Shown here: positions 34,367 to 64,000 of the stretch, piece after piece
Layout of the letters: the number at the start of each line of letters is the position of its first letter
Numbering within the stretch: position 1 is the stretch's first letter
NCBI RefSeq assembly: GCF_016406085.1
Contig: NZ_JAEHFJ010000001.1
Span: forward strand, 186,001-250,000
Direction of reading: 5' to 3'
Length of the DNA stretch: 64,000 bases
From: Aureibaculum flavum
Lineage (GTDB): Bacteria; Bacteroidota; Bacteroidia; Flavobacteriales; Flavobacteriaceae
Notes under the pieces: generated by a model
Databases searched by the model: none
What the model saw: the letters and a program-made list of their open reading frames with translations, nothing else
What the model was told of the DNA's origin: nothing
Position numbers and translations under genes: made by a program

Positions 34367-34433
34367 TAAATTGTTAGAAATAAAAATAGAGTCATTTTAG
34401 CAAGTTTGTTTTCTATTATCAATTAAAATGACT

Positions 34434-34470
34434 AAAACCCTGAAGCCCACTCTTCAGGGTTTTGCTTTTT
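34434..34470 (+). terminator. Intrinsic terminator after the SusCD pair
   Basis: A perfect 12-bp stem (AAAACCCTGAAG, 34434-34445, with its complement 34452-34463) and a six-base loop are followed by TTTTGCTTTTT. Confidence 0.88.
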
Positions 34471-34496
34471 AATGAAATAATTAGTATCTTTTTGAA

Positions 34497-35590
<1,094 letters not shown>

Positions 35591-51130: not shown

Positions 51131-51150
51131 ACTTTTTCTATCTTCGCGAC

Positions 51151-52824
51151 ATGCAACAAGAAAAAGCCTTAGCGATATTAAAATCTGGTAAAAATGTGTT
51201 TTTAACAGGTTCCGCAGGTACAGGTAAAACGTATGTCCTTAATGAATATATTAAGTATTTACGAGCTCGAAAAGTGCCAGTTGCCGTAACGGCTTCAACA
51301 GGAATTGCTGCAACACATATGAATGGTATGACCATTCATTCGTGGTCAGGCATCGGTGTTAAAGAACATCTTACTCAAGGAAATTTGGCAAGTATGAAAG
51401 CCAAGAAATACCTTAAAAAGAACTTAGGAAAAGCAGAAATACTCATCATTGATGAAATTTCAATGTTGCATAAGAACCAATTAAATTTAGTAGATCGAGT
51501 ATTACGGTATTTTAAAGATAATCAAGATCCATTTGGAGGCATTCAAGTGGTGCTCAGTGGTGACTTTTTTCAACTCCCTCCTATTGGTAAATACAATGAA
51601 AAAAGTAGAGATAAATTTTCATTTATGTCTGAGGCTTGGGTAAATGCTAATTTTAATGTTTGCTATTTAACGGAACAATACCGTCAAAGTGATTCTAGCC
51701 TTAATGATATTTTAAATGAAATTCGCACAGGTAACGTATCACAACAGAACTTACAAATTTTAAAAGAGGCCACCGAGCACACACTAGAAAAGAAAGAAGT
51801 ACCTACTAAATTATTTACCCACAATACAGATGTAGATAAGATAAATACCGAACATTTAGTTGAGTTAGAAGGTAGAACAAAAACTTTTAAAGCAACAGCT
51901 AAAGGAAATATTAAATTAATTGATACCTTAAAGAATTCGGTATTGGCTAGTGAAAATTTACAATTGAAAATTGGTGCTAAAGTGATGTTCGTAAAAAACA
52001 ATGCTGAAAAAGGATTTGTAAACGGCACCTTAGGTAAAGTAACTGGATTTAATGCAGAAGGACATCCAAAAGTAAAACTATCTGATAAAAGAATTATTAC
52101 GGTTGAGAAAGAAGATTGGTCAATTCAGGATGATCATAATAAAGTACTGGCTAGCTTCAGTCAATTTCCATTGCGTTTGGCTTGGGCAATCACGGTTCAT
52201 AAATGTCAAGGAATGACTTTAGATGAAGCTGAAATTGATCTATCTAAAACCTTTGAACGTGGGCAAGGCTATGTGGCTTTATCACGATTAAAAAGAATTG
52301 AAAATCTTCAATTAAAAGGTTTCAATGAAATGGCCTTAATGGTTGACCAACTGGCACATAAGGCAGATCTTCGTTTTCAAGAACTTTCAAATGATGCCGA
52401 TCAAAAATATACTATTGATGAATTAACTAAAATGGCTCCTGCCTTTATTAGAAGTTGTGGCGGAACTACAAATGTTAAGGATATTGACAAGAATAAGAAA
52501 AAAATAAAAGAGAAAAAGTCAACAAAACAATCTACTTACGACCTGACTTTATCTTACCTGCAGCAAAAGAAATCTATTGAAGAAATTGCTGAAGAAAGAG
52601 GAATGACAGCCGGTACAATTTCTGGTCATGTTATTAGACTTCGAAGTGATTATCCGAAAGAAGATTTAAGTTTTTACAAACCTAAAAAGGCTCTTTTTAA
52701 TAAAGTAAAAAAAGTGTACGAGCTGCAATCTAATGGCAATGAAATTAGTTCAAAAGTAATTTTTGACGCTTTAAATGGCGAAGTAAGTTATCAGGAAATA
52801 AAATTGTGCATCGCATTTTTATAA
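51151..52824 (+). CDS. Pif1-like DNA helicase with C-terminal HTH_40 domain
   Basis: A 557-residue superfamily 1B helicase: Walker A FLTGSAGTGKTYVLNEYI near residue 20, VAVTASTGIAATHMNGMTIHSWSGI, Walker B AEILIIDEISMLHKNQL, GGIQVVLSGDFFQLPPIG, TEQYRQSD, and the late motif RLAWAITVHKCQGMTLDEAEIDL with YVALSRL. The C-terminal 130 residues hold a helix-turn-helix of the HTH_40 type (TYDLTLSYLQQKKSIEEIAE, ERGMTAGTISGHVIRL). Pif1 relatives unwind DNA 5' to 3' and resolve G-quadruplexes and R-loops. This architecture is typical for Bacteroidota. It starts 20 nt after the beta-helix gene. Confidence 0.92.
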   Translation: MQQEKALAILKSGKNVFLTGSAGTGKTYVLNEYIKYLRARKVPVAVTASTGIAATHMNGMTIHSWSGIGVKEHLTQGNLASMKAKKYLKKNLGKAEILIIDEISMLHKNQLNLVDRVLRYFKDNQDPFGGIQVVLSGDFFQLPPIGKYNEKSRDKFSFMSEAWVNANFNVCYLTEQYRQSDSSLNDILNEIRTGNVSQQNLQILKEATEHTLEKKEVPTKLFTHNTDVDKINTEHLVELEGRTKTFKATAKGNIKLIDTLKNSVLASENLQLKIGAKVMFVKNNAEKGFVNGTLGKVTGFNAEGHPKVKLSDKRIITVEKEDWSIQDDHNKVLASFSQFPLRLAWAITVHKCQGMTLDEAEIDLSKTFERGQGYVALSRLKRIENLQLKGFNEMALMVDQLAHKADLRFQELSNDADQKYTIDELTKMAPAFIRSCGGTTNVKDIDKNKKKIKEKKSTKQSTYDLTLSYLQQKKSIEEIAEERGMTAGTISGHVIRLRSDYPKEDLSFYKPKKALFNKVKKVYELQSNGNEISSKVIFDALNGEVSYQEIKLCIAFL

Positions 52825-52828
52825 AGTC

Positions 52829-53290
52829 ATGAGTATTTTAAACTTCTTATTTGGTAAAAAAAAGATTATTATTCATCCTATTATTGGTGAAATAATAAGC
52901 GATAGAATTAAAGGAAACAACCAAACTAAAAGCTATACTTGGCTTGGAAGCATAACTTTAAATAATCAACCAGAAAAAACAACCATAATTATGGAAGGCC
53001 ATGCATCTGGTCCTTTATCAGCTCATTTAAGTTTTATTAGTCAACTAATTGAAAATTGGGAGAATAAATTTCTTCCAATTATAGAGCAGATTATCATAGA
53101 AAAAGGAATTGATAAAACTGAAAAGTACTCAAATTGGAAAAATGAATTTTATGTTGGGGCTGTTGTCCCTACAAATTCTAAGAAATCTGAGTTTGAATTA
53201 ACATTTGAGCCTTTTAATTCTGAAAATAGTAATTTCATTTGCATTGAATTTAAAAATAGTACTATTATTAATGTTCAGACTTTTGAATAA
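52829..53290 (+). CDS. Uncharacterised 153-residue protein
   Basis: A soluble protein without signal peptide or membrane span. Features: N-terminal KKKIIIHPIIGEI, a segment YTWLGSITLNNQPEKTTIIM, GHASGPLSAHLSFISQLIENWENKF, then a likely helical part and a beta-rich end. I do not recognise the family with certainty; it recalls DUF2262/DUF6985-like proteins, which are also poorly known. ATG at 52829 lies 4 nt after the helicase stop, so co-transcription is likely. No catalytic motif is visible. Confidence 0.6.
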   Translation: MSILNFLFGKKKIIIHPIIGEIISDRIKGNNQTKSYTWLGSITLNNQPEKTTIIMEGHASGPLSAHLSFISQLIENWENKFLPIIEQIIIEKGIDKTEKYSNWKNEFYVGAVVPTNSKKSEFELTFEPFNSENSNFICIEFKNSTIINVQTFE

Positions 53291-53366
53291 TTACATTGCA
53301 ACCGAACACAATAGCTTACACATTACTCTTTAACAAGATTTTAAACCTTTTTATTCTCTTTTTGTT

Positions 53367-53374
53367 TAGTTTTG
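53367..53374 (+). promoter_or_regulatory. Possible -7 element (TAGTTTTG) before the OstA-like gene
   Basis: TAGTTTTG fits TAnnTTTG, 11 nt before the ATG at 53385. No good -33 TTTG is at the right spacing, so it is only a candidate. Confidence 0.3.
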
Positions 53375-53384
53375 TAGCAAATCA

Positions 53385-54962
53385 ATGAATTTGAAAAAAG
53401 TTTTATTTTTACTAGTATTTATCACATCCTTTGCAATGCAAGCTCAGCAAAAACGGATTGAGATATTACATGCTGACACTTCTATTGAAGATGATGAAAG
53501 GTACCCAAATGGTACGGTTTTACTGGGTGATGTTTTTATACAGCACGAAGGCTTTACGCTACGAAGTAAAACAGCAGTACACTATAAACTAGAAAATATA
53601 ATAAGAGCATATGGTAATGTAGTATTAAACCAAGGAGACACCATTACACAAACAAGTGATTATGTGCAGTATAATGGTAAGACTAAAAAAGCAAAATCAT
53701 GGGGTAAAGTTGTACTGAACAATACCGAAATGACTTTGACTACAGACACGTTAGACTTTGACCGTACAAAGCAGCTATTGTTTTACAAAAGTGGTGCAAT
53801 CATCAAAGATAGCGTCAACGTTTTGGAAAGTAAAATAGGGAATTACTATCTTAAAACTTCAAAGTTTGAGGCACTTTCTAATGTTGTTCTCACCAATCCT
53901 GATTATGTACTTGAATCTGACCATTTAGATTATTATACAAGTAATGGACAAGCTTTTCTATATGGACCTTCAACCATTACTGGAGAAGACAACCATATTT
54001 ATACTGAAAGTGGATTTTATGACACTCAAAAAAACACCTCTCATTTTACAAAAAACTCAGTATTAACCTACCAAAACAGGTCTATTACTGCTGATAGTTT
54101 ATATTATGATAGGAATCTAGCATTTGCCTCAGCCACCAACAACATAAAGATGTTAGATACCTTAAACAATGCTGTAATTCGAGGTGATTATGGTGAGTTT
54201 TACCAAAAATTAGATTCCGCTTTTGTGATAAACAAAGCCGTTGCTATAACAGAAATTGAGAAAGATTCAATGTATGTCCATGGAGATACCTTACTGGTAA
54301 CTGGCAAACCAGAAAATAGAATAATAAGGGCGTATAATCGCGTAAAATTCTTCAAAAGTAATTTAAGTGGTAAGTGTGATTCAATTCATTCAAATCAAAA
54401 AACGGGACTCACACAAATGTTTAGAAACCCTGTATTGTGGTCACAAGAAAGTCAAATTACTGGAGACACCATTCACTTACTTTCTAATTCCGTAACAGAG
54501 CAATTAGATAGTTTAAAAATTTTACGTAATGCCTTTGTGATTCAAAAAGATTCTGCAGGGTATAATCAGATAAAAGGTAGGAATATATTAGGAAAGTTTA
54601 TTGACAATGATTTAGAAGATGTTAATGTCGTGGGTAATGCGGAAAGCATATTTTATGTTAGAGATGATGAAGACAATCTTAATGGTATAGATAAAAGTAC
54701 GTGCAGCTATATCAATTTTCAATTAAAAGATAAGAAAATCAGAAACATTACGTATTACGTTAACCCTGAAGGAACTATTTACCCGCCCTCTAAAATACCA
54801 AAAAGTGATCGTATTTTTCGTGGTTTTGTTTGGCGTGATACTGAAAGACCACAAAAAATGGAAGATATTTTTATAAAGGATGATGATGATGCTATTGAAG
54901 TCAATAAAGAACAACAACCTACGGTAAGTTCGCTAGAATCTATCAAAAAAGGTATTGAGTAA
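53385..54962 (+). CDS. OstA/LptA-like periplasmic protein
   Basis: A 525-residue protein with a signal peptide (MNLKKVLFLLVFITSFAMQAQ) and several OstA repeats: VLLGDVFIQHEGFTLRSKTA, AYGNVVLNQGDTI, YYLKTSKFEALSNVVLTNPD, GPSTITGEDNHIY, ADSLYYDRNLAFASATNNIK. It resembles the periplasmic LptA/LptD-N beta-jellyroll that carries lipopolysaccharide to the outer membrane. Bacteroidota encode this long OstA form. The acidic C-terminus (IKDDDDAIEVNKEQQ) is not part of the jellyroll. The aminotransferase gene starts 13 nt after its stop. Confidence 0.87.
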   Translation: MNLKKVLFLLVFITSFAMQAQQKRIEILHADTSIEDDERYPNGTVLLGDVFIQHEGFTLRSKTAVHYKLENIIRAYGNVVLNQGDTITQTSDYVQYNGKTKKAKSWGKVVLNNTEMTLTTDTLDFDRTKQLLFYKSGAIIKDSVNVLESKIGNYYLKTSKFEALSNVVLTNPDYVLESDHLDYYTSNGQAFLYGPSTITGEDNHIYTESGFYDTQKNTSHFTKNSVLTYQNRSITADSLYYDRNLAFASATNNIKMLDTLNNAVIRGDYGEFYQKLDSAFVINKAVAITEIEKDSMYVHGDTLLVTGKPENRIIRAYNRVKFFKSNLSGKCDSIHSNQKTGLTQMFRNPVLWSQESQITGDTIHLLSNSVTEQLDSLKILRNAFVIQKDSAGYNQIKGRNILGKFIDNDLEDVNVVGNAESIFYVRDDEDNLNGIDKSTCSYINFQLKDKKIRNITYYVNPEGTIYPPSKIPKSDRIFRGFVWRDTERPQKMEDIFIKDDDDAIEVNKEQQPTVSSLESIKKGIE

Positions 54963-54975
54963 TAAGAGTAATCGT

Positions 54976-56163
54976 ATGCAATCAGACTTTACAAAATATC
55001 AAGCACAAACGTCTCCACATCCTTTAGCTTTGGAAATATCACACGCCGAAGGATCTTTTGTTTATGATACAAAGGGAAAAGAGTATCTCGATTTTATTGC
55101 GGGTGTTTCAGCCAATAGTTTAGGACACAACCATCCTAAAGTAAAAAAAGCTATCATTGATCAGGTTAATGCCTATACACATGTTATGGTTTATGGAGAG
55201 TTTGTTCAAAAACCAGCAGTTGAGCTCTGTAAACAATTAGCAGATTTACTTCCTCAATCAGAAGAATGGTCAATCTATTTAACCAATTCTGGTACTGAGG
55301 CAACAGAAGGAGCTATAAAATTAGCAAAAAAATTTACAGGTAGAACAGAAATAATAGCCGCCAAAAATGCGTACCATGGTAATACACAAGGTGCTATGAG
55401 TGTTTGCGGAAATGAGAATCAAAATAGAGCTTTTAGACCACTAGTTCCTGGTATTAAATTCATCACTTTTAATAATGAAGAGGAACTGAAAAAAATCACT
55501 TCTAAAACAGCCGCCGTACTTTTAGAAACCATTCAAGGTGGAGCCGGTTTCATTGTTCCAAAAAATGATTATTTATTAAAAGTCAAAAAACGTTGTGAAG
55601 AAGTTGGTGCACTATTAATACTTGATGAAATACAAACAGGTATTGGCAGAACGGGTTCGTTTTTTGGTTTCGAAAATTACAACACCACTCCTGATATTAT
55701 TATAACAGGCAAAGGTTTAGGTGGAGGCATGCCTATTGGAGCCTTTATTGCTCCTAATAATATGATGTCAATTCTAAAAGAAAATCCCAAATTAGGCCAT
55801 ATTACTACTTTTGGAGGGCATCCAGTTATTGCCGCTTCAGCCTTAGCGACAGTAAAGGAAATAAGTTCATCCAACTTAATGGCCGAGACCTTAGTAAAAG
55901 AAAAGTTATTTAGAAAAAGATTACAACATACAGCGGTAAAAGAAATTAGAGGTAAGGGATTGCTTTTAGCTTTAATTGTTGACACTCCAGAAATTGCCTC
56001 ACAAATAATTTTAAAATCGTTAGAGAAAGGTTTATTACTATTTTGGTTACTTTTTGAAGGGCGTGCTGTTAGAATAACACCTCCTTTAAATATTTCAAAT
56101 GAGGAAATAGAAAAAGGATGTGAAATATTACTTAATGTAATTAATGAAGTTACAAATGACTAA
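54976..56163 (+). CDS. Class III PLP aminotransferase (acetylornithine aminotransferase-like)
   Basis: From the ATG at 54976 the product is 395 residues (MQSDFTKYQAQTSPHPLALE). A TTG at 54955 would overlap the OstA-like gene and is less likely. Class III features: FIAGVSANSLGHNHPKV, TNSGTEATEGAIKLAKK, LILDEIQTGIGRTGSFFGFE and the PLP lysine in IITGKGLGGGMPIGAFIAP. It transfers amino groups between an omega-amine or aspartate-like donor and a keto acid; the substrate cannot be decided. The 3' end overlaps the convergent antiporter gene by 4 nt. Confidence 0.88.
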   Translation: MQSDFTKYQAQTSPHPLALEISHAEGSFVYDTKGKEYLDFIAGVSANSLGHNHPKVKKAIIDQVNAYTHVMVYGEFVQKPAVELCKQLADLLPQSEEWSIYLTNSGTEATEGAIKLAKKFTGRTEIIAAKNAYHGNTQGAMSVCGNENQNRAFRPLVPGIKFITFNNEEELKKITSKTAAVLLETIQGGAGFIVPKNDYLLKVKKRCEEVGALLILDEIQTGIGRTGSFFGFENYNTTPDIIITGKGLGGGMPIGAFIAPNNMMSILKENPKLGHITTFGGHPVIAASALATVKEISSSNLMAETLVKEKLFRKRLQHTAVKEIRGKGLLLALIVDTPEIASQIILKSLEKGLLLFWLLFEGRAVRITPPLNISNEEIEKGCEILLNVINEVTND

Positions 56164-57503
56164 TGCTCGGTAGAAGGAAATCCATTGTCCTTCTCTTCTG
56201 AAATTTCATTTTGCTTTACTTCTTCATTACGTTCTTCTAAGGCTTCTTGTTCATTTAATACATCTTCTGCTTCATTTCTTTGTTGTACTTCATCATCAAT
56301 GTCATCCAAAATAGTTCCAATTTTCTTCTTATCTTTTATCATTGCCCATGTCATTAATAGGCTTGTTGCAATAATTACAAAGAGCAAAATACCCGATTCA
56401 AAATTTTCTATCTGACCTTCTTTGGGTATGCTATAAAATAATAATATAGTTATCAATCCACGTGGTGCTATAAACAACTGCGGAAAAATATCTTTACCTA
56501 TAAATATTCTTAAAACAACGTAACGAATTGCATAAATAGACGCAATAATTAAAAGGCTAATACCAACTACACTTATACTTACTAAAGAAGATAAAACGAT
56601 AGTAAGCCCAAAAATTACAAAGAAAAATGTGCGGATTACAAATGCCGTTTCTAAGGTAATAATATGTAATTCATGATAAATTTGGTCAATCTTATCCTTT
56701 TCTAAAAAGATGGCTGTTTTACCAGGAAAAAATAACTTAACGTTTGCAATAACCAATCCAAAAATCAATATAATTATTAATGAAGACAAATGGAACTTCT
56801 TACCAATGGCATAGAGTAAAAGCAATACCGCTATTAATAAAAATAGCTTTGCTTGACTCTTAATTTTTTGAAAAATCAAGATGATACCATAACTGGCCAC
56901 GAGAGCAATAATAATGGTTAAAACCGTTGTTAATGCAAACTCTCCTGCCCCAACAGCATGTTCCGGATCAAGACCTCCTATCATAAAATAAAACATCATA
57001 ATTCCCATTATATCTGAGAAGGTACTTTCATATATATGAAATTCTTTCTTCTTATCTCCTAACCCACTTACACTTGGTATAATAATAGCACTAGATAATA
57101 TGGACAATGGAATTGCGTATAACCAAGCAGAGGTCATTGACATTCCATCAACAGCATAATGCAGTATAAGTGCAGCTACCCATGCTGATGCCACTAAACC
57201 AATCAAAGCTATTGCCATTGATTTTAAAATAGGTATTAGTTTCTCTCGTTTCAATTCTAATTCTAAAGCAGCTTCAAGAACAATCATAATTAACCCAATG
57301 GTACCTAAAATTTCTAAGGAAGGTCTAAAATCTATTTCTTCTCCAACAAAATAATCCATTGCAAATTTTAATATAACACCCAATACTATGAGCATTAAAA
57401 CGGAAGGAATATTTGTTTTTTTTGAGAGTCCAGTAAACCAAAAAGATAAAATTATAATTACAGAAGCTCCAATGATTAAATTATAAGAAGATAATATTTC
57501 CAT
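56160..57503 (-). CDS. Cation:proton antiporter (CPA1/NhaP type)
   Basis: A 447-residue inner-membrane transporter with about 12 spans (LIIGASVIIILSFWFTGL, IPSVLMLIVLGVILKFAM, FRPSLEILGTIGLIMIVLEAAL), the helix pair SILSSAIIIPSVSGL, FVIRTFFFVIFGLTIVL and FIAPRGLITILLF, as in Na+/H+ exchangers. A 60-residue Glu-rich cytosolic tail (DDIDDEVQQRNEAEDVLNEQ) follows and may regulate the exchanger. No RCK/TrkA domain is present. It balances internal pH or sodium. The ATG at 57503 faces a long gene-free stretch. The stop overlaps the convergent aminotransferase. Confidence 0.88.
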   Translation of the reverse strand: MEILSSYNLIIGASVIIILSFWFTGLSKKTNIPSVLMLIVLGVILKFAMDYFVGEEIDFRPSLEILGTIGLIMIVLEAALELELKREKLIPILKSMAIALIGLVASAWVAALILHYAVDGMSMTSAWLYAIPLSILSSAIIIPSVSGLGDKKKEFHIYESTFSDIMGIMMFYFMIGGLDPEHAVGAGEFALTTVLTIIIALVASYGIILIFQKIKSQAKLFLLIAVLLLLYAIGKKFHLSSLIIILIFGLVIANVKLFFPGKTAIFLEKDKIDQIYHELHIITLETAFVIRTFFFVIFGLTIVLSSLVSISVVGISLLIIASIYAIRYVVLRIFIGKDIFPQLFIAPRGLITILLFYSIPKEGQIENFESGILLFVIIATSLLMTWAMIKDKKKIGTILDDIDDEVQQRNEAEDVLNEQEALEERNEEVKQNEISEEKDNGFPSTEH

Positions 57504-57862
57504 GTAGGATTAGTTTCGTTTGATTTAATTCGTTAAAAATACCATTTAAAAATGTATAGTAATATTTTTCATTAATAATAACGGATATAAGTTACAATTT
57601 GTTTGAATCCTAATAAAAAAAAATAAATGATTAATTCTTCTAACGCATTAATAGCGTTTCTTAAATGCTAATTTTTATGAATATTTTTAAAAAAAACAGC
57701 TTAGATACTGATGATTTCAACTATTTACAAAAATTTTTAAACCAAATGTTAAAACTGTTAAAATGTACTAAAATTTAGTTAAAATGAAAATTAACAGTAA
57801 CAATTTGTACTTCAAAAAGTCTATTAGGCATAACATAAAAATTAATCCAAAACATATTTATC
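57504..57862. other. 359-bp gene-free divergent intergenic region
   Basis: AT-rich DNA between the divergent antiporter and small secreted-protein genes. The only repeats seen are GTTAAAA words at about 57748, 57757 and 57780 (GTTAAAAC, GTTAAAATG, GTTAAAATG), which could be a regulator site for the rightward gene. A 33-codon frame at 57677-57778 (MNIFKKNSLD start) is not convincing. No exact TAnnTTTG promoter stands out. Confidence 0.4.
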
Positions 57863-58210
57863 ATGAAAAAATTAAAATTAGTTTCATTATCATTAGCACT
57901 ACTTATTGGATCTTTATCGTATGCCTCAAATGCTGAACCAGACACCAAATCTGAAATTAGAAATCAAATCATAAGCCTATTAAACAAAACGGAAGTAAAC
58001 ATTGATTCTGATCAATTAGTAGCTAATGTATCTTTTATGCTAAACGAAAAATCAGAACTTGTCATCATTTCTGTGAGATCAAAAAATGATAAAAAAAATA
58101 ATTATATAATTGATACTTATATTAAAAAACACTTGAACTATAAAAAAGTAAAAGTGAATAACTTAAAAGTTGGTAAAGTTTATGAAATGCCTTTTAAAAT
58201 GGTAAAATAA
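57863..58210 (+). CDS. Small secreted protein of unknown function
   Basis: A 115-residue protein with a signal peptide (MKKLKLVSLSLALLIGSLSYA). The mature part of about 94 residues (EIRNQIISLLNKTEVNID, ANVSFMLNEKSELVIISVRS, IDTYIKKHLNYKKVKVNNLKVGKVYEMPF) has alternating strands and helices. It resembles small periplasmic proteins common in flavobacteria (TonB-C-like or BON-like size), but no domain is certain. Start ATG 57863. A strong bidirectional terminator follows at 58223-58268. Confidence 0.75.
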   Translation: MKKLKLVSLSLALLIGSLSYASNAEPDTKSEIRNQIISLLNKTEVNIDSDQLVANVSFMLNEKSELVIISVRSKNDKKNNYIIDTYIKKHLNYKKVKVNNLKVGKVYEMPFKMVK

Positions 58211-58222
58211 CAAATAATACAT

Positions 58223-58268
58223 AAAAAAGAGAGACTGCCTTTAAGTTAAAGACAGTCTCTCTTTTTTT
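58223..58268. terminator. Bidirectional terminator between convergent genes
   Basis: The stem AAAAAGAGAGACTG with its exact complement CAGTCTCTCTTTTT brackets a further small hairpin CTTTAAGTTAAAG. It ends in a T run on the plus strand and an A run at the other side, so it serves the plus-strand gene and the minus-strand TlpA-like gene. Confidence 0.9.
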
Positions 58269-58283
58269 TTCAAAACACATTAA

Positions 58284-58862
58284 TTATTCTTCAATTAATT
58301 TATCTAATAATTCTCTAATTGAATTACTGTTCCAATTGACAGCTCCATATTCTGACAACGCCACCTTTCCATTTTTATCTAAAATAAAAGTTGTAGGAAT
58401 GGTTGAAACTTCTAATTGCTTTGGTGCCTGTGACAGTTGATTGTATGTAGGAAAGTTATAATCATTCTTACCATAAAATTTCTCTACTTTCTCTTTAGTA
58501 TCTGTAGTTACAAATAAAAACACCAATTTTTCATTATAATCTAAATACAGCTTATGTATCATGGGCATTTCTGCAATACAAGGTGGACACCACGTTGCCC
58601 AGTAATTTATAAAAACTACTTTGCCTTTTAATGATTCCAAGTTCATATCGTTCGCCGAAACAATTCCTTTGAATTTTAAATCATAAGTATCTACTGTCAA
58701 TCGCTTATCAATTTGCTCCACAGAAGGTGAAAAAATTAAGGTCTTTACATAGGTAATACCTTGGGTTAGCTTTGCTCTTGTACCCAAACCAAATGGTGTA
58801 AAAAGGAAAATAATAAATCCGAAAAATAGAATATTTGAAATTGTTTTTTTGTTTAGTTTCAT
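58284..58862 (-). CDS. TlpA/ResA-like membrane-anchored thioredoxin
   Basis: A 192-residue protein with an N-terminal membrane anchor (ISNILFFGFIIFLFTPFGLG) and a thioredoxin domain: GIVSANDMNLESLKGKVVFINYWATWCPPCIAEMP with the WCPPC active site. FLFVTTDTKEKVEKFYGKN and the cis-Pro loop EVSTIPTTFILDKNGKV follow. It keeps periplasmic thiols reduced, possibly in cytochrome c or other envelope-protein maturation. The ATG at 58862 is about 29 nt after a candidate start point (promoter 58895-58924). Confidence 0.88.
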   Translation of the reverse strand: MKLNKKTISNILFFGFIIFLFTPFGLGTRAKLTQGITYVKTLIFSPSVEQIDKRLTVDTYDLKFKGIVSANDMNLESLKGKVVFINYWATWCPPCIAEMPMIHKLYLDYNEKLVFLFVTTDTKEKVEKFYGKNDYNFPTYNQLSQAPKQLEVSTIPTTFILDKNGKVALSEYGAVNWNSNSIRELLDKLIEE

Positions 58863-58894
58863 ATTGTATTAGTAGTATAATTATTACAATCTTA

Positions 58895-58924
58895 CAAAAA
58901 TAAATAAAAAAAAGGTGCAACAAA
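58895..58924 (-). promoter_or_regulatory. Candidate promoter for the TlpA-like gene
   Basis: On the minus strand TTTG (58924-58921) is followed after 18 bp by TATTTTTG (58902-58895), close to TTTG-N19-TAnnTTTG. The predicted start is near 58891. It overlaps the terminator of the upstream lipoprotein gene. Confidence 0.45.
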
Positions 58925-58935
58925 TGTTACACCTT
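58907..58935 (-). terminator. Terminator after the RskA-repeat lipoprotein gene
   Basis: The stem AAGGTG with CACCTT and AAC with GTT (one mismatch) encloses a short loop at 58912-58935. It is followed on the minus strand by a T-rich run, 27 bp after the lipoprotein stop. Confidence 0.65.
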
Positions 58936-58961
58936 AAATAACTCAAAACACTAAAATCGTT

Positions 58962-59858
58962 TTATCTATTTACTGTCCCTGATGGGAAAGAAGCACCATT
59001 AAAAGTTAAGTCATATGTTGCCGGTGCCGTTTCATTACCTGCAGTACCCAATAAAGGTTTTAATAAAAAGGGTGCCGGTGAGTTATCTGGTGATGGTTCT
59101 ACAGAAAGCACTACCGTTCTTCCTCTAATATCTAATGGAAATGTAAATCCTGTTGGTGTATTACTAAAAAAATCTTCACCCGGAATTGGAGGGCCTGCAT
59201 TTTCAATTCCACTGAAAGAAGTTGCACTTCCAGCATTGTCATCTGCTACATCAAACGCCGTAAAGGTACCTGTAGATAAAGGACCTTGACCATCTACGAC
59301 AACCCAACCTTCGTATTTCCAACCGGCTTCCAATGTAGGTAATGTAAAAGCTGCTGTTGGTGGAGCACCAGGTGTACCAAACCAAATTCCACTTTCATCG
59401 TTACCATTATTATCTGCAGATTCATCGGTTGGAGATCTTAAAAAGAATTTCCCAGCTGGTGTATCTGTAGTAAAATCACCAACTGTACCCACTGAAACTG
59501 TAGCACTACTTCCTGAAAAATCTCCTACAATTAATTTAGTATCAGAAGGTGTTGCTGCCGCAGTACCTGTTTCTCCTGCAGGTTCTATGCTTAATACAAA
59601 TCTAGTAGCTGCATCTAATTCAACAGCATCTACAGCAAAATTTTGACCTAATGAAATGTCTGAAAATGTTCCTGTACTTACTGGAGCTCCATCAACTATA
59701 ATCCATCCTTCATAAACATAATCTGAACCCAATTCTTCCAGACCGGTAACATTGATGGTTAAATTTTTTGTTGAAGGCGAAAAGTTGTTATCTTCATCAC
59801 ATGATGTAAATAGCAGTCCAAAAGCTGTAATAGCTAAAAATAAATTGTTTCTTGTCAT
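58962..59858 (-). CDS. Lipoprotein with two RskA-C-like repeats
   Basis: From the ATG at 59858 the product is 298 residues (MTRNNLFLAITAFGLLFTSC, lipobox TSC). A frame start at 59906 would add 16 residues and is rejected. Two copies of a repeat follow: YEGWIIVDGAPVSTGTFSDI with RFVLSIEPAGETG, and YEGWVVVDGQGPLSTGTFTAF with VVLSVEPSPDNSP. The pattern (YEGWVVVDG-PVSTGTF ... VLSVEP) is like the C-terminal domain of anti-sigma factor RskA, here without its cytosolic part or membrane helix. It is probably anchored in the outer or inner membrane and could bind a ligand. A Crp/Fnr gene lies 128 nt upstream, with a palindrome and a TATATTTG element in between. Confidence 0.8.
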   Translation of the reverse strand: MTRNNLFLAITAFGLLFTSCDEDNNFSPSTKNLTINVTGLEELGSDYVYEGWIIVDGAPVSTGTFSDISLGQNFAVDAVELDAATRFVLSIEPAGETGTAAATPSDTKLIVGDFSGSSATVSVGTVGDFTTDTPAGKFFLRSPTDESADNNGNDESGIWFGTPGAPPTAAFTLPTLEAGWKYEGWVVVDGQGPLSTGTFTAFDVADDNAGSATSFSGIENAGPPIPGEDFFSNTPTGFTFPLDIRGRTVVLSVEPSPDNSPAPFLLKPLLGTAGNETAPATYDLTFNGASFPSGTVNR

Positions 59859-59941
59859 AATAAAGTTTTTTTTATGTGTTAGTAATCGTGTTTTTATTAG
59901 CATCAAATGAGAGACTAATAATTTGAGTAAAATTTATATGA

Positions 59942-59949
59942 CAAATATA
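59942..59949 (-). promoter_or_regulatory. -7 element TATATTTG of the lipoprotein gene
   Basis: Read on the minus strand, TATATTTG fits TAnnTTTG. The predicted start is near 59938, with an 80-nt leader. There is no TTTG at the -33 position (the bases there are CATT), which is typical of an activator-dependent promoter. Confidence 0.55.
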
Positions 59950-59970
59950 AAAGAGGTATGTTTTATAAAA

Positions 59971-59986
59971 TGTTAGCTAGCTAACA
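59971..59986. promoter_or_regulatory. 16-bp perfect palindrome TGTTAGCTAGCTAACA, likely Crp/Fnr operator
   Basis: An exact 16-bp inverted repeat starts directly after the stop codon of the Crp/Fnr gene. Its centre (59978.5) is about 40 bp upstream of the predicted start at 59938, the position used by class II Crp/Fnr activators (-41.5). The regulator encoded next to it is the obvious candidate to bind. This is inference. Confidence 0.5.
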
Positions 59987-60661
59987 CTATGCAACTTTTT
60001 TCAGGATACGAATTTCTTTTTTATAAAAATCTAAGATTTTTTCATGTTTTAATTCGTTAAGTATAATATTAAGTGTAGGTCTAGATGTACCAATTAATGA
60101 AGCAATATCTTTTTGGGTGTAAGGGTGTTTAATAATCTTATCACCAGTCTTTTCACAATCATATCCATAATCTTCACACAACTCATCTAAAAACTCTAAC
60201 AGTCTGGTTTTTGTATCTTTAAATAGTAACAATTGAATTCTTCGTTCCAACCTTTTAATACGTAATCCAATGAATTTATAAATTTTAAAGCTTACGGAAA
60301 CATTATCCCTCATCAATTCATAAAGTGTTTCTTTTGATATCGGGCAAATAGAGGTTGTATTATCTATAGATTGTGCAAATTCATTTCTTTTATCAATTCC
60401 TAAAATGGCTTTTTCTCCAAACATTTCCCCCTTCGTCAATATTGCTCTAACAACTTCTTCACCGTCATCATTATATTGACCTATTTTAACTTTACCTTTA
60501 TTAATCAAATAAATTTTATTGGCAGCATCTTGCTCAAAATAGATATAATCCCTTTTTTTATAAAAACTAAATTTATGGTTTGAAGAATACTCCGAATATT
60601 TATGAGGGCATAAAATTTTAAAAAGATTTACATCATCAAAAAACCACATATTAGTGTTCAT
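59987..60661 (-). CDS. Crp/Fnr family transcription regulator
   Basis: A 224-residue regulator. The N-terminal cNMP-binding-like barrel (about 35-125) shows YIYFEQDAANKIYLINKGKVKIG, GEMFGEKAILG and ETLYELMRDN. A long helix (VSFKIYKFIGLRIKRLERRIQLL) precedes the C-terminal winged helix with KHPYTQKDIASLIGTSRPTLNIILNELK as recognition helix. No Fnr-type cysteine cluster is present near the N-terminus, so it is not an oxygen-sensing Fe-S Fnr; the effector is unknown. Start ATG at 60661; M5 is an alternative. It probably controls the adjacent lipoprotein gene through the palindrome at 59971-59986. Confidence 0.9.
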   Translation of the reverse strand: MNTNMWFFDDVNLFKILCPHKYSEYSSNHKFSFYKKRDYIYFEQDAANKIYLINKGKVKIGQYNDDGEEVVRAILTKGEMFGEKAILGIDKRNEFAQSIDNTTSICPISKETLYELMRDNVSVSFKIYKFIGLRIKRLERRIQLLLFKDTKTRLLEFLDELCEDYGYDCEKTGDKIIKHPYTQKDIASLIGTSRPTLNIILNELKHEKILDFYKKEIRILKKVA

Positions 60662-60724
60662 AGCTATATTGTTTTGGTTGATGATTAAGTCGGGGTGTAC
60701 TGCTATTTCTTACAAAAGAAAAAA

Positions 60725-61037
60725 AAGTAGGCTATAAGCCGGATTCTGTAATTCAGTTGAACTGAAATCCTTATCATTTATCTACGTTATACATTACTGC
60801 ATAACTTTAGCTGTTTACCCCTTGGAATTGGACGCGTACCCTTACCCTTTCGGGACTCCAATATACGTAACATTGCATCTCATAGAGTTTACCTGGTTTC
60901 ACTACAGCCTAACTGTACTTGCTTTCTGTTGCACTTGTCCTTGGCTTACGCCAGACGGATGTTATCCGCTATGATTCGCTGTGATGTCCGGACTTTCCTA
61001 TTCCACTATTGGTGAAATCGATAAGGTAGCCTACTTT
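60725..61037 (-). ncRNA. rnpB: RNase P RNA (bacterial type A)
   Basis: The minus strand reads from about 61037 to 60725, roughly 313 nt. The ends pair: AGTAGGCT near the 5' end with AGCCTACT near the 3' end (helix P1). Highly conserved parts are present: GGAAAGTCCGGAC after the first helix, and CAGAATCCGGCTTAT near the 3' end. It is the catalytic RNA that trims the 5' end of tRNA precursors. A TATTTTTG promoter element (61048-61041) predicts a start at 61037. It lies between the Crp/Fnr gene and two small RNAs on the same strand. Confidence 0.93.
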
Positions 61038-61040
61038 CTG

Positions 61041-61048
61041 CAAAAATA
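61041..61048 (-). promoter_or_regulatory. -7 element TATTTTTG of rnpB
   Basis: On the minus strand TATTTTTG fits TAnnTTTG. With the usual four-base distance the start falls at 61037, exactly at the 5' end of the P1 helix of rnpB. That agreement supports both calls. Confidence 0.6.
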
Positions 61049-61084
61049 GAACTAATAAAAATGTGAATCTATAATTTATGGATA

Positions 61085-61162
61085 AAAAAAATCCCACTCC
61101 TTATTTAAAAGGAGTGAGAAAATTGCTATGAAAAAGAAATATTACTGAACTATTGCTCAGCA
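61085..61162 (-). ncRNA. Small RNA copy 1 (about 78 nt), tandem paralogue
   Basis: On the minus strand a TATATTTG element (61173-61166) predicts a start near 61162. The RNA has a 5' hairpin (TATTGCTGA with TCAGTAATA, 61165-61140, one G-U pair), then the linker TTTTTCATAGCAATTTTC, then a stem-loop (CTCACTCC with GGAGTGGG, 61118-61093) followed by a T run. Layout and sequence match copy 2 exactly 200 bp away. No protein is encoded. I cannot tie it to a known family; Rfam Flavo-1 or similar should be tested. Confidence 0.6.
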
Positions 61163-61165
61163 ATA

Positions 61166-61173
61166 CAAATATA
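61166..61173 (-). promoter_or_regulatory. -7 element TATATTTG of small RNA copy 1
   Basis: On the minus strand TATATTTG, a perfect TAnnTTTG, lies directly before the hairpin of copy 1. The preceding bases are TT, as in copy 2. No clear -33 element is seen. Confidence 0.5.
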
Positions 61174-61289
61174 TAAACGCCGTCTCTATCGTTTTATTGC
61201 AACGTATAAGTAATTAATGATGAAATAAACAAAAACCAACTTAACATACTGAAAAACAATGTGTTGAGAAATGTTAAAAATTTGTTACA

Positions 61290-61364
61290 AAAAAAAACCC
61301 ACTCTAAATTAGAGTGGGAAAATTGCTATGAAAAAGAAAAAGTGTTGAATTTTACAATTCAACA
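61290..61364 (-). ncRNA. Small RNA copy 2 (about 75 nt), tandem paralogue
   Basis: On the minus strand a TATATTTG element (61375-61368) predicts a start at 61364, the first base of a perfect 9-bp hairpin (TGTTGAATT / AATTCAACA, loop GTAA). The same 22-nt linker as copy 1 follows (61339-61318), then a perfect terminator stem CCCACTCT/AGAGTGGG (61318-61298) and nine T. The hairpin and terminator stems differ in sequence from copy 1 but keep pairing, which indicates selection on structure. Between the copies (61174-61288) I see no gene. It lies about 70 bp downstream of dnaJ. Confidence 0.65.
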
Positions 61365-61367
61365 GGA

Positions 61368-61375
61368 CAAATATA
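61368..61375 (-). promoter_or_regulatory. -7 element TATATTTG of small RNA copy 2
   Basis: On the minus strand TATATTTG, a perfect TAnnTTTG, lies 3 nt before the 5' hairpin. A weak CTG occupies the -33 position at a spacing of 19 bp. Confidence 0.5.
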
Positions 61376-61434
61376 TAAATTTTATTAATAAAAACAGTAA
61401 ATAATTATCAATAAATGATTAATTCACACTTGTT

Positions 61435-62568
61435 TTATGAAAACATATCTTTGACCTTTTCAAAAAATGATTTATCTGAATGTGTTGGTATCGGTGCAAA
61501 ATGCTCATCATCTTTCATTGATTCGAAAAAAGCTTTTTGATCTTTTGACAAATCCTTTGGTGTCCAAACATTTACATGAATTAGTAAGTCACCTTTACCA
61601 TAACCTTCTAGACTCGGTAAACCTTTACCTCTCAATCTTAATATCTTACCGGACTGTGTACCTGCTTCAATTTTAATTCTGACCTTACCTGTTAAGGTAT
61701 CAATTTCCATACTTTCACCAAGTACAGCATCAGGAATACTCACATACATATCATAGTGTAAGTTATTACCCTCACGTTTTAACTTATCATGTGGAATTTC
61801 TTGAATAACAACCAATAAATCTCCAGATATACTGTTTCCTGGAGCCTCATTACCTTTACCTGATACTTTCAATTGAACGCCATCTACAACTCCAGGTGGA
61901 ATTTTAATAGAAACACTTTCTTCTTTTTCTATTAAACCTTGAGCATTTGAGCCACTTGGTCTGTGATCTATCATTTGACCAGCACCTTGACATGTTGGAC
62001 AAGTAGTTGCTGTCTGCATTCTACCTAGTATAGTATTGGTAACTCTAGTAACTTGACCTTGACCATTACATGTACTACAGGTCTTATAAGTAACTCCCTC
62101 GGCTTTAACCAAACGCTTTACTTTTACCTTTTTTTCGACACCATTAACAATTTCTTCTAATGTTAATTTGACACGAATTCTAAGATTACTCCCTTTAACT
62201 CTAACGCCTCCTCTACTTTGACCACCTCCGCCAAAACCAGAAAATCCGCCGCCGCCGCCGAAAGCACCTCCAAAAATATCTCCAAATTGACTAAAGATAT
62301 CATCCATGTTCATACCACCACCGCCAAAGCCTCCACCTTGACCACCTTCAAATGCAGAATGTCCAAATTGATCGTAACGTGCTTTTTTATCAGTATTACC
62401 TAATATTTCATAAGCTTCTGCTGCTTTTTTAAATTTTTCTTCCGCTGTTTTATCATCAGGATTTTTATCCGGATGATATTTTATAGCCTTCTTTCGATAC
62501 GCTTTCTTTATCTCTGCAGGAGATGCACTTTTTTCAATTCCTAATATTATATAATAATCTTCCTTCAA
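61435..62568 (-). CDS. dnaJ: Chaperone DnaJ with a two-motif zinc finger
   Basis: A 377-residue Hsp40. J domain: DYYIILGIEKSASPAEIKKA with His32-Pro33-Asp34 (YHPDKNPDDKTAEEKF). Then a Gly/Phe-rich linker (GGGFGGGGMNMDDIFSQFG), a cysteine region and the C-terminal substrate-binding beta domains (SVSIKIPPGVVDG, GDLLVVIQEIPHDKLKREG). The cysteine region holds only two CxxCxGxG motifs (CSTCNGQG and CPTCQGAG), equivalent to zinc site II. Motifs 1 and 4 (site I) are absent. It delivers unfolded clients to DnaK. The only start in frame before the upstream stop is a TTG at 62568. grpE precedes it by 30 nt. Confidence 0.94.
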   Translation of the reverse strand: MKEDYYIILGIEKSASPAEIKKAYRKKAIKYHPDKNPDDKTAEEKFKKAAEAYEILGNTDKKARYDQFGHSAFEGGQGGGFGGGGMNMDDIFSQFGDIFGGAFGGGGGFSGFGGGGQSRGGVRVKGSNLRIRVKLTLEEIVNGVEKKVKVKRLVKAEGVTYKTCSTCNGQGQVTRVTNTILGRMQTATTCPTCQGAGQMIDHRPSGSNAQGLIEKEESVSIKIPPGVVDGVQLKVSGKGNEAPGNSISGDLLVVIQEIPHDKLKREGNNLHYDMYVSIPDAVLGESMEIDTLTGKVRIKIEAGTQSGKILRLRGKGLPSLEGYGKGDLLIHVNVWTPKDLSKDQKAFFESMKDDEHFAPIPTHSDKSFFEKVKDMFS

Positions 62569-62598
62569 AATTTAAAATTTAATTACACTGAAAATAAT

Positions 62599-63147
62599 TT
62601 ATTGACCGATAACTACTTTTGGATAGCGAATAATTTTATCACCCAACTTATATCCTTTTTCAGTTACGTCAATAACCTTTCCTTTTAATTTTTTTGATGG
62701 AGCAGGAATTTGAGTAATAGCTTCATGTATTTCCGCATCAAATTTATCACCTTGCTTCACCTCTACCTTTGTTAATCCCTTTTGCTCTAAAGTTTTTAAA
62801 AGTTTTTGATAAATTAATAATACTCCTTTTCGTAACTCTTCAGCCTCCTTATCGTCTTCTGCATGCGTTAATGCACGTTCAAAATCATCTAAAACTGGCA
62901 ATAAAACAGTCATTAAGTCTTGATTTGCAGTTTTAAATAACTCTACTCTTTCCCTTGAAGTTCTTTTCTTATAATTTTCAAACTCAGCAAATAAGCGTAA
63001 ATACTTATCTTTTTCCTTTTGAATTAAATCTTCAGTAGTCGGTTCTGCAGTATCATTCACTTCTTCTCCATTAACTTCTGCCTGACCATCTTGAACATTT
63101 TCTGTATCTTGAATCTCTTCTTGATTTGTATTTTCTTCTGTACTCAT
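62599..63147 (-). CDS. grpE: Nucleotide-exchange factor GrpE
   Basis: A 182-residue DnaK co-chaperone. An acidic disordered N-terminus (STEENTNQEEIQDTENVQDG) is followed by a long coiled coil (DKYLRLFAEFENYKKRTSRE), a four-helix part (LMTVLLPVLDDFERAL) and the C-terminal beta wing (IHEAITQIPAPSKKLKGKVI, GYKLGDKIIRYPKVVIG). It releases ADP from DnaK. ATG at 63147. It forms a unit with dnaJ; dnaK is not in the window. Its promoter region has a sigma-54-like -24/-12 motif (63180-63196). Confidence 0.95.
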   Translation of the reverse strand: MSTEENTNQEEIQDTENVQDGQAEVNGEEVNDTAEPTTEDLIQKEKDKYLRLFAEFENYKKRTSRERVELFKTANQDLMTVLLPVLDDFERALTHAEDDKEAEELRKGVLLIYQKLLKTLEQKGLTKVEVKQGDKFDAEIHEAITQIPAPSKKLKGKVIDVTEKGYKLGDKIIRYPKVVIGQ

Positions 63148-63179
63148 CTCTATGAATATTTAACATTAAAAATTTAGTT

Positions 63180-63196
63180 TGCAAAAGTACTGCCAA
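63180..63196 (-). promoter_or_regulatory. Sigma-54-like promoter for grpE-dnaJ
   Basis: On the minus strand TTGGCAGTACTTTTGCA fits YTGGCAC-N5-TTGCW, with GG and GC at the required spacing and only two positions off. The predicted start near 63169 leaves a leader of about 22 nt to the grpE ATG. The same bases also contain TACTTTTG, a TAnnTTTG match (63189-63182), without a -33 element. TGACATTATGGCA lies just upstream. Confidence 0.45.
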
Positions 63197-63324
63197 TTCC
63201 TCTAAAATGCCATAATGTCAGAAGAAAAATTTTAATAGAGAAATATTATCCACATATTTGCTAAAACCATAGTAGAAAACATACTATAATTCAATGGAAA
63301 GGATAAAAGCACTTCACTTTTAAA

Positions 63325-63360
63325 CAAAAAAATCCAATTTTACCGAAATAAAATTGGATT
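63325..63360 (-). terminator. Intrinsic terminator after murA
   Basis: A perfect 12-bp stem (AATCCAATTTTA, 63331-63342, with its complement 63349-63360) and a six-base loop are followed on the minus strand by a T run (63330-63325). It lies 24 bp after the murA stop. Confidence 0.85.
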
Positions 63361-63384
63361 TATAATTTTTTGGGATTTTTAAAA

Positions 63385-64000
63385 TTAATCTACTCTTATA
63401 ATTTTAGCTCCGATAGCTTGCAAACGTTCATCTATACGTTCGTAACCTCTATCGATCTGTTCTATATTATGAATTGTTGAAGTTCCTTTAGCAGAGAGTG
63501 CTGCAATAAGTAAGGACACTCCTGCTCTAATATCAGGTGAAGTCATCGTTGTAGCCTGTAAGTCAGATTTAAAATCATGACCAATTACAGTGGCTCTATG
63601 TGGGTCACATAAAATAATTTTAGCTCCCATATCTATCAATTTATCAACGAAAAACAAACGACTTTCGAACATTTTTTGATGAATTAATAAACTTCCATTT
63701 GCTTGTGTTGCTACAACCAAAATAATACTCAATAAATCTGGCGTAAATCCAGGCCAAGGAGCATCAGATATGGTAAGTATAGAACCATCTATAAAACTCT
63801 GTACATTATACCCATTCTTATGTTCTGGTATATGAATATCATCACCTTGACGTTCTACTGTTATTCCTAATTTTCTAAAAACGCTTGGTATAACTCCTAA
63901 ATCATCCCAACTGACACCTTTAATAGTTAATTCACTTTTTGTCATTGCTGCCAGGCCAATCCAACTTCCAATTTCAATCATATCAGGTAACATTCTGTGT
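63385..64000 (-). CDS. murA: UDP-N-acetylglucosamine 1-carboxyvinyltransferase (C-terminal part)
   Basis: The frame is open to the window edge and ends at a TAA at 63385; about 204 of the expected 430 residues are visible. Family features: HRMLPDMIEIGSWIGLAAMT, then DISIP-like DDIHIPEHK, GSILTISDAPWPGFTPDLLSI, TNGSLL-like NGSLLIHQKMFESRLFFVDKLIDMGA, and the end TTMTSPDIRAGVSLLIAALS and QIDRGYERIDERLQAIGA. The enzyme transfers enolpyruvate from PEP to UDP-GlcNAc in the first step of peptidoglycan synthesis, in the cytosol. The Cys loop lies in the missing N-terminal half. A terminator follows at 63325-63360. Confidence 0.94.
   Translation of the reverse strand, partial: HRMLPDMIEIGSWIGLAAMTKSELTIKGVSWDDLGVIPSVFRKLGITVERQGDDIHIPEHKNGYNVQSFIDGSILTISDAPWPGFTPDLLSIILVVATQANGSLLIHQKMFESRLFFVDKLIDMGAKIILCDPHRATVIGHDFKSDLQATTMTSPDIRAGVSLLIAALSAKGTSTIHNIEQIDRGYERIDERLQAIGAKIIRVD

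Follow-up and report, generated by a model that had tools for sequence, protein, structure and literature searches.

The window analysed here, a 64,000-nucleotide stretch of the Aureibaculum flavum genome (G000; G, C and L numbers are the genome, contig and locus handles of this analysis), carries two predicted small RNA genes, units A and B. As the preliminary description had it, both lie on the minus strand between dnaJ and rnpB, genes that Pfam and Rfam, respectively, identify. The features of the locus are as follows:

61435..62568, minus strand: dnaJ, the upstream neighbour (Pfam DnaJ and DnaJ_C; synteny across genera)
61368..61375, minus strand: −7 box of unit A, TATATTTG, of the sigma-A type TAnnTTTG (sequence motif)
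61289..61364, minus strand: unit A, predicted dnaJ-proximal small RNA with inferred ends (fold z −5.58; covariance model E 5.2e-14)
61343..61364, minus strand: 5′ hairpin of unit A (fold)
61318..61336, minus strand: core of unit A, CTTTTTCATAGCAATTTTC, inside the identical 22-nt string at 61318–61339
61289..61318, minus strand: intrinsic terminator and T run of unit A (sequence, fold)
61176..61200, minus strand: ECF-like promoter of unit B, GCAATA-N15-CGTT (before all 15 B units read in Aureibaculum; at 0 of 7080 random places)
61166..61173, minus strand: TATATTTG before unit B (lacking in 10 of the 15 B units read in Aureibaculum)
61084..61162, minus strand: unit B, predicted rnpB-proximal small RNA with inferred ends (fold z −6.08; model E 3.4e-12)
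61143..61162, minus strand: 5′ hairpin of unit B (fold)
61118..61136, minus strand: core of unit B, inside the identical 22-nt string at 61118–61139
61084..61119, minus strand: intrinsic terminator and T run of unit B (sequence, fold)
60720..61037, minus strand: rnpB (RNase P RNA), the downstream neighbour (Rfam RF00010, 195 bits)

Each unit measures about 80 nt and folds into a 5′ hairpin, an open linker and a terminator (z −5.6 and −6.1), and the 22-nt string TTTCTTTTTCATAGCAATTTTC is the same in both (61339–61318 in A, 61139–61118 in B); the shared order of parts and the identical linker noted earlier are thus borne out. A search of the window for the 19-nt core with up to three mismatches gave three matches against 0.16 expected, a number reached by none of 100 shuffles. 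The 14 paired loci from Aureibaculum hold A and B units in the same order as the window. Other features of the first description apply more narrowly: the exact 200 bp between units is correct in the window but is no fixed spacing, the range being 151–397 bp at the other multi-copy loci retrieved; TATATTTG precedes both units here, but 10 of the 15 B units read in Aureibaculum lack TAnnTTTG; and the two tandem paralogues, true locally, are not the general state but result from local duplication of a gene that the family as a whole mostly has in one copy.

Across positions 50000–64000 of the window, only rnpB exceeded the gathering threshold of Rfam 15, and the only match over unit A, anti-hemB, stayed below threshold with 21.7 of 49.5 bits. 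Fifteen further loci with the RNA, sponge or phage copies gave no match at gathering, and in a search of 20 loci at E 0.5, only rnpB was above threshold. In the parts available of the best-matching open-access articles on flavobacterial and Bacteroidota sRNAs, including PMC9723704, PMC11697453 and PMC5069720, we likewise found no description of the RNA, in keeping with the initial impression that the units match no described RNA with certainty. Elsewhere in the window, a long bidirectional terminator-like palindrome lies between two convergent genes (58201–58295), with weak, below-threshold Rfam matches on both strands.

A covariance-model search of flavobacterial genomes had been suggested as a check. 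Our model, R1, was built from 52 sequences and pairs positions in the terminator only, so that the core drives it; it matched 255 of 299 Flavobacteriaceae genomes and 205 of 236 genera, mostly with one copy. In a sample of the phylum, it matched 24 of 395 genomes, 22 of them Flavobacteriaceae, and inspection found the core absent from both matches outside the family. Weak model matches there (G569 and G619; E about 1e-4) were dismissed as chance, the best core match in L339 and L340 having four mismatches. Searched for directly with at most one mismatch, the 19-nt core occurred in 24 of 40 relatives (one, G038, belongs to another family and is probably a chance match) and its reversed control string in none of the 40.

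For closer inspection we chose 20 genomes of 20 genera among the model matches with coordinates, 19 with one match and G109 with two. The 18-nt core CTTTTTCATAGCAATTTT was unaltered in all 20—an identity that is partly by construction because a core-rich model found these genomes. This does not apply to synteny: in 19 of the 20, the C-terminus of DnaJ is encoded within 500 nt upstream of the RNA. In one large genus, g142, the four listed genomes matched by the model all have the core after dnaJ (L323–L326), and at least 19 genomes have no model match. Our guess is that g142 is Flavobacterium, which would explain why the RNA is absent from the F. psychrophilum text.

Covariation was counted on 20 sequences of one hairpin type with a structure drawn by hand. 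In this alignment, 97.5% of cells pair and eight of 20 base pairs changed on both sides (shuffled mean, 2.4), as did six of nine in the 5′ helix; the covariation score of 0.207 (shuffled, 0.130) was reached by none of 500 shuffles. RNAalifold missed the 5′ hairpin in a 40-sequence alignment (A2) because the hairpin types are misaligned there. The stems thus vary yet pair around a linker whose core is the same in 20 genera, as first noted for the two window copies; a lack of linker or pairing conservation in related genomes had been named as grounds for rejecting that claim, and conservation is what the relatives display. A family of RNAs with a hairpin, a fixed core and a terminator is real and conserved, and apparently undescribed.

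An invariant partner such as ribosomal RNA would fit the invariance of the core. We consider this explanation extremely improbable, since the longest exact complement in the 5.9-kb rRNA contig of the genome is 8 nt, and the best duplex with the scanned 23S gene strand (−12.2 kcal/mol) is no better than the shuffled mean of −14.7 kcal/mol.

A contig scan recovered at least 118 stretches, with copies in Lutibacter, Tenacibaculum, Polaribacter, Flavicella, Lutimonas, Gelidibacter and others among the matches listed, a few of which lack the hairpin–core–terminator architecture. At 195 core places (one mismatch allowed; some are repeats of one locus), both stems were found at 170, as against 278 of 3900 random places. 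The 25 without both stems include a larger tandem element and related loci, the complement loci of the Muricauda group and chance matches (L097, L119, L169 and L199); a few true copies (L050, L076, L113) were missed by the stem finder. An arm-swap figure (5′ stem 98.4% paired versus 44%) was set aside as overstated because stems had been found by maximising pairing, the both-stem share being the fair control. Copies that are dispersed, sometimes tandem and sometimes in phages could be read as a repeated element or terminator cassette devoid of regulatory function, yet the position behind dnaJ is kept in 19 of 20 genera, the stems covary and the unpaired core does not change, all of which makes this very improbable.

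By sequence, promoter motifs and intrinsic terminators are present and conserved. TAnnTTTG precedes 112 of 169 copies, compared to 173 of 7080 random places (2.4%), while rCAATA-N15-CGTT—by its sequence an ECF-sigma-like promoter—precedes all 15 B units read in the genus, the window included, and none of the 7080 random places. Two Tenacibaculum copies (L148, position 5132; L173, position 5772) carry a sigma-54-like TGGCAC-N5-TTGC or near form directly before the hairpin; the motif and its near form occur at zero and one of 7080 random places. None of the three types stands before 45 copies. Sigma-A (TAnnTTTG consensus), ECF (CGT box) and sigma-54 promoters are described for F. psychrophilum (PMC9723704).

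The core is also present on six viral contigs, on four of which (L202, position 5787; L205, 526; L206, 9062; L207, 536) it sits between its own 5′ hairpin and a terminator, with a GGTAGT/ACTACC hairpin in three of these four phage versions. A Lutibacter maritimus region (L189) shares genes with L205 and carries the same hairpin-bearing core version; phage-like genes around L189, L202, L205, L206 and L207 were recognised by eye. Tenacibaculum sp. MAR_2009_124 (L185) has four copies about 2 kb apart (739, 3190, 5201, 7062), with an upstream motif that has TTCGT just before the hairpin, and a near-identical copy (L203, position 607) is filed as viral. Within Aureibaculum, there is a third paralogue with the core CTTTTCATAGCAATTTCCC or a near form, located at C20:446836–446907 (minus strand; L269) in G000 and found in several genomes of the genus (L068, L072, L078, L240, L266).

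The complement of the core, AAAAUUGCUAUGAAAAAG, contains a start codon. We surveyed potential targets in 20 single-contig genomes of 20 genera, all with the RNA. The 12-mer TTGCTATGAAAA matched 83 times, 20 of which are the sRNA itself (one per genome), leaving 63 that were all read in context, whereas the control STTSTATGAAAA, four strings of like composition, matched 84 times or 21 per string; complementary 12-mers are hence about three times commoner than control 12-mers. Machine classification of 81 contexts assigned 21 to gene starts, 20 to coding sequences, 19 to the sRNA, eight to positions before terminators, seven to other and six to antisense locations; L461 was wrongly classed as sRNA, and tests used n = 62 non-sRNA sites. 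The 59 of 84 control contexts that were read comprised 28 in coding sequences, 15 antisense, six other, six at starts and four before terminators. Gene-start sites were enriched (21/62 versus 6/59; Fisher p 0.002), and sites before terminators showed no significant excess by machine class (8/62 versus 4/59; p 0.36). By eye, L387 is not a pre-terminator site but falls within a coding sequence; L448 appears to be internal and L447 to be a start, and only L477 is convincing among the four control sites before terminators. Calculated from base frequencies, TTGCT is favoured about 2.5-fold over the control strings in the flanks of start codons, which brings the excess at starts closer to 4 fold than to 10. 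An estimate that three of 95 ATGAAAA starts have TTGCT before them was dropped, the three (L097, L119, L169) having been brought in by the same pattern. Sites internal to coding sequences ran at twice the control rate (20 versus about 10), six of them in one acyl-CoA-dehydrogenase-like orthologous gene of six genera (by eye); these six are no evidence.

As negative controls served 19 g142 genomes without a model match, all of one genus. They hold 33 TTGCTATGAAAA sites in 87.4 Mb (0.38 per Mb), the 20 genomes with the RNA 63 in 73.6 Mb (0.86 per Mb), a difference with Fisher p 1.6e-5 when tested against the reversed-string counts (82 and 47). Thirty sites read in the g142 genomes without a match included six starts and none before terminators (by eye, L497 was added and L509 removed). 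The start share does not differ significantly between genomes with the RNA (21/62) and those without a model match (6/30; p 0.22); the difference lies in density. We looked for one long-complement target common to all genera and found none, and the target genes differ between genera.

Pfam named nine of 12 start-site genes, three being without a family: the peptide methionine sulfoxide reductases MsrA and SelR (MsrB), GSHPx, YceI, Usp, rhodanese, fasciclin, glucose/sorbosone dehydrogenase and DUF6252. Many other start-site genes look like lipoproteins, but so do, often, those at control start sites, and the envelope bias is background for this reason. No susC-like gene was recognised among the start sites (from their sequences, with Pfam on 12 of them). 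Of seven real-looking terminator sites, three follow fasciclin genes in two genera; the others follow a peroxiredoxin gene, a thioredoxin–DUF6952 pair with a thiol peroxidase gene after it, a CsbD-like gene and a DUF2383-like gene, with fasciclin, AhpC-TSA and DUF6952 assigned by Pfam and the rest by eye. More weight may attach to the fasciclin and thiol/peroxide genes, which recur, than to the envelope bias.

In the window's own genome, TTGCTATGAAA occurs exactly 15 times, the reversed string 13 times. The places comprise the two sRNAs, the third paralogue (C20:446869), a tandem structured element (three), a sponge (two), two 3′ UTRs ahead of terminators (a second, shorter match accompanies one of them) and one start codon, the remainder being without a clear role. 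The gene at that sole start-codon site (C20:194211) is outer-membrane-like, matches no Pfam family and was not among the 14-mer matches of seven relatives; the duplex of the site with the linker has −23.6 kcal/mol. Long mRNA pairing is thus rare in G000, and support for start-codon targets comes from the other genera.

Exact matches to the 14-mer AATTGCTATGAAAA outside the sRNA loci led us to complementary non-coding RNAs. The first (S1), in G000 (C3:34372, in a sponge at about 34250–34530), G009, G007, G016, G011 and G012, has three to four sites, e.g. TTGCTATGAA and TTGCTGTGAA, within a stem that AAATTCTTAGAC and TCTGAGAATTTTT, or similar sequences, close. A second (S2), at a separate locus in G005, G002 and G001, has two to three sites and then a terminator; a third (S3), in G005 and G002, comprises a TATATTTG box, a 22-nt complement of linker A and a terminator. 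The duplex of linker A with the sponge L255 reaches −27.9 kcal/mol against a shuffled mean of −11.9. Four Muricauda-group loci (L118, L144, L150, L164) hold a single exact complement each; L118 and L150, the two that were read, have a terminator after it. Clusters of two or more sites turned up in two of 249 genomes and one of 235 genera (control, 0), for which reason the multi-site RNAs look like a local invention. Judged by sequence, the Aureibaculum RNAs with two to four complementary sites are probable sponges. Tandem repeats of 23 bp in G173 that contain GCTATGAA were taken as unrelated; this genome has several arrays of the repeat GCTATGAAACATCTTCATACTAT (C1:903978, 2908021–2908166, 3422786–3422931 and 3835624–3835723).

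One could suppose that the main job of the RNA is to interact with such dedicated complementary RNAs, as an RNA–RNA switch to which start-codon sites are incidental: the longest complements in G000 indeed lie in the sponge, the tandem structured RNAs, 3′ UTRs and just one start. We regard this as improbable, given that multi-site RNAs occur in one of 235 genera, yet the RNA in 205 of 236, and that start-codon sites exceed control strings in 20 genera.

The best reading, and in our judgement a probable one, is that of a family-wide trans-acting base-pairing sRNA with a fixed anti-start-codon core and local sponges. By sequence, the RNA has the conserved unpaired region with complementary sites expected of a base-pairing sRNA, and pairing by the core is the best-supported mechanism that the sequences suggest. 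The original proposal of selection on trans-acting RNAs with a fixed seed gains comparative support from the invariant core, the covarying stems, the excess of complements and the multi-site RNAs; transcription, pairing in cells, the sign of regulation and sponge action are what we infer from these. Mechanistically, the 5′ hairpin and terminator would protect and present the invariant single strand 5′-CUUUUUCAUAGCAAUUUU, and as its complement AAAAUUGCUAUGAAAAAG corresponds to a start-codon region, the RNA would pair at the start codons of selected messages (exported lipoproteins in many cases, redox repair in some), most likely blocking translation. It may also pair with the 3′ ends of some stress genes just before their terminators, which could alter stability or titrate the RNA. 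In Aureibaculum, the separate RNAs with two to four complementary sites would act as sponges, and extra copies would put the same core under other sigma factors, allowing several stresses to reach one target set.

The nearest analogue in presumed mode of action is FopS/GibS of Bacteroides, for which PMC11697453 describes multicopy paralogous sRNAs (in B. thetaiotaomicron, 14 similar ones) that have a terminator and a conserved single-stranded seed, the seed pairing near start codons of exported-protein, susC-like mRNAs; a phage sequence with FopS is also reported. Both are paralogous Bacteroidota sRNAs with a single-stranded conserved stretch, a terminator and phage copies, and pairing near start codons is predicted for the present RNA. 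In FopS, however, the single-stranded stretch is at the 5′ end, the consensus has no 5′ hairpin and promoters are of the sigma-ABfr type (PMC11697453), whereas here a covarying 5′ hairpin precedes the core, and the RNA is family-wide, mostly single-copy at dnaJ, under other sigma-type promoters and accompanied by complementary RNAs. The loci tested did not match the FopS Rfam model, whose presence in the release rests on the deposition statement of PMC11697453.

At 18 nt, the invariant stretch exceeds the usual length of a seed, so that a protein partner may also be involved. A stronger form of this idea is that the core chiefly serves as the binding site of an RNA-binding protein, e.g. an RRM protein like RbpB—which binds FopS RNAs in Bacteroides, according to PMC11697453—with the RNA titrating or guiding it and complements being secondary. 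Invariance of 18 nt across genera does exceed the constraint usual from variable mRNA targets, but a protein site alone predicts neither the excess of exact complements in RNA-bearing genomes nor RNAs with repeated complementary sites, and we deem it rather unlikely. Retaining the base-pairing sRNA with its anti-start-codon core, we advance a wider scenario as a tentative possibility: a Flavobacteriaceae core regulator behind dnaJ would set the translation of envelope and thiol/peroxide stress genes, its core having been copied under ECF and sigma-54 control, sponges having evolved more than once and phages having taken the core up to act on the host network.

Post-transcriptional regulation in Flavobacteriaceae is, to our knowledge, little known. 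The family is a major group of marine polysaccharide degraders and makes little use of Shine-Dalgarno sequences. With the RNA in 205 of 236 sampled genera, a list of sites and probable sponges, sRNA control of translation in low-Shine-Dalgarno bacteria becomes directly testable.

Among flavobacterial sRNAs, Rfp18 of F. psychrophilum is conserved, with predicted exported-protein mRNA targets that its third stem-loop pairs with; the article places Rfp11 at 182564, Rfp36 at 840245 and the dnaJ promoter at 1798337 (PMC9723704). Conservation and predicted targets for exported proteins make Rfp18 similar to the present RNA, but it is unlikely to be the same one: on these positions, the order of Rfp numbers should put it away from dnaJ.

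In other phyla, Qrr, OmrA/B and LhrC are sibling sRNAs that share one seed among several differently controlled genes; the present family differs by its 18-nt invariant core and the complementary multi-site RNAs. The sponges SroC and RosA are complementary to an sRNA seed, often near a 3′ end, whereas here up to four tandem sites lie in one non-coding RNA (L220), and two unrelated loci are involved.

Finally, the larger structured element, often tandem (L009 245–375, with three copies 453 bp apart in C4 of G000; L208–L213), sits downstream of a CBS-domain-like gene (MAIKSFQG, by eye). Its two ends have GGGGAGAAAGGAGA and CCCCC, respectively, and a long hairpin includes the core or its complement; AGAAAGGAG resembles a strong Shine-Dalgarno sequence.
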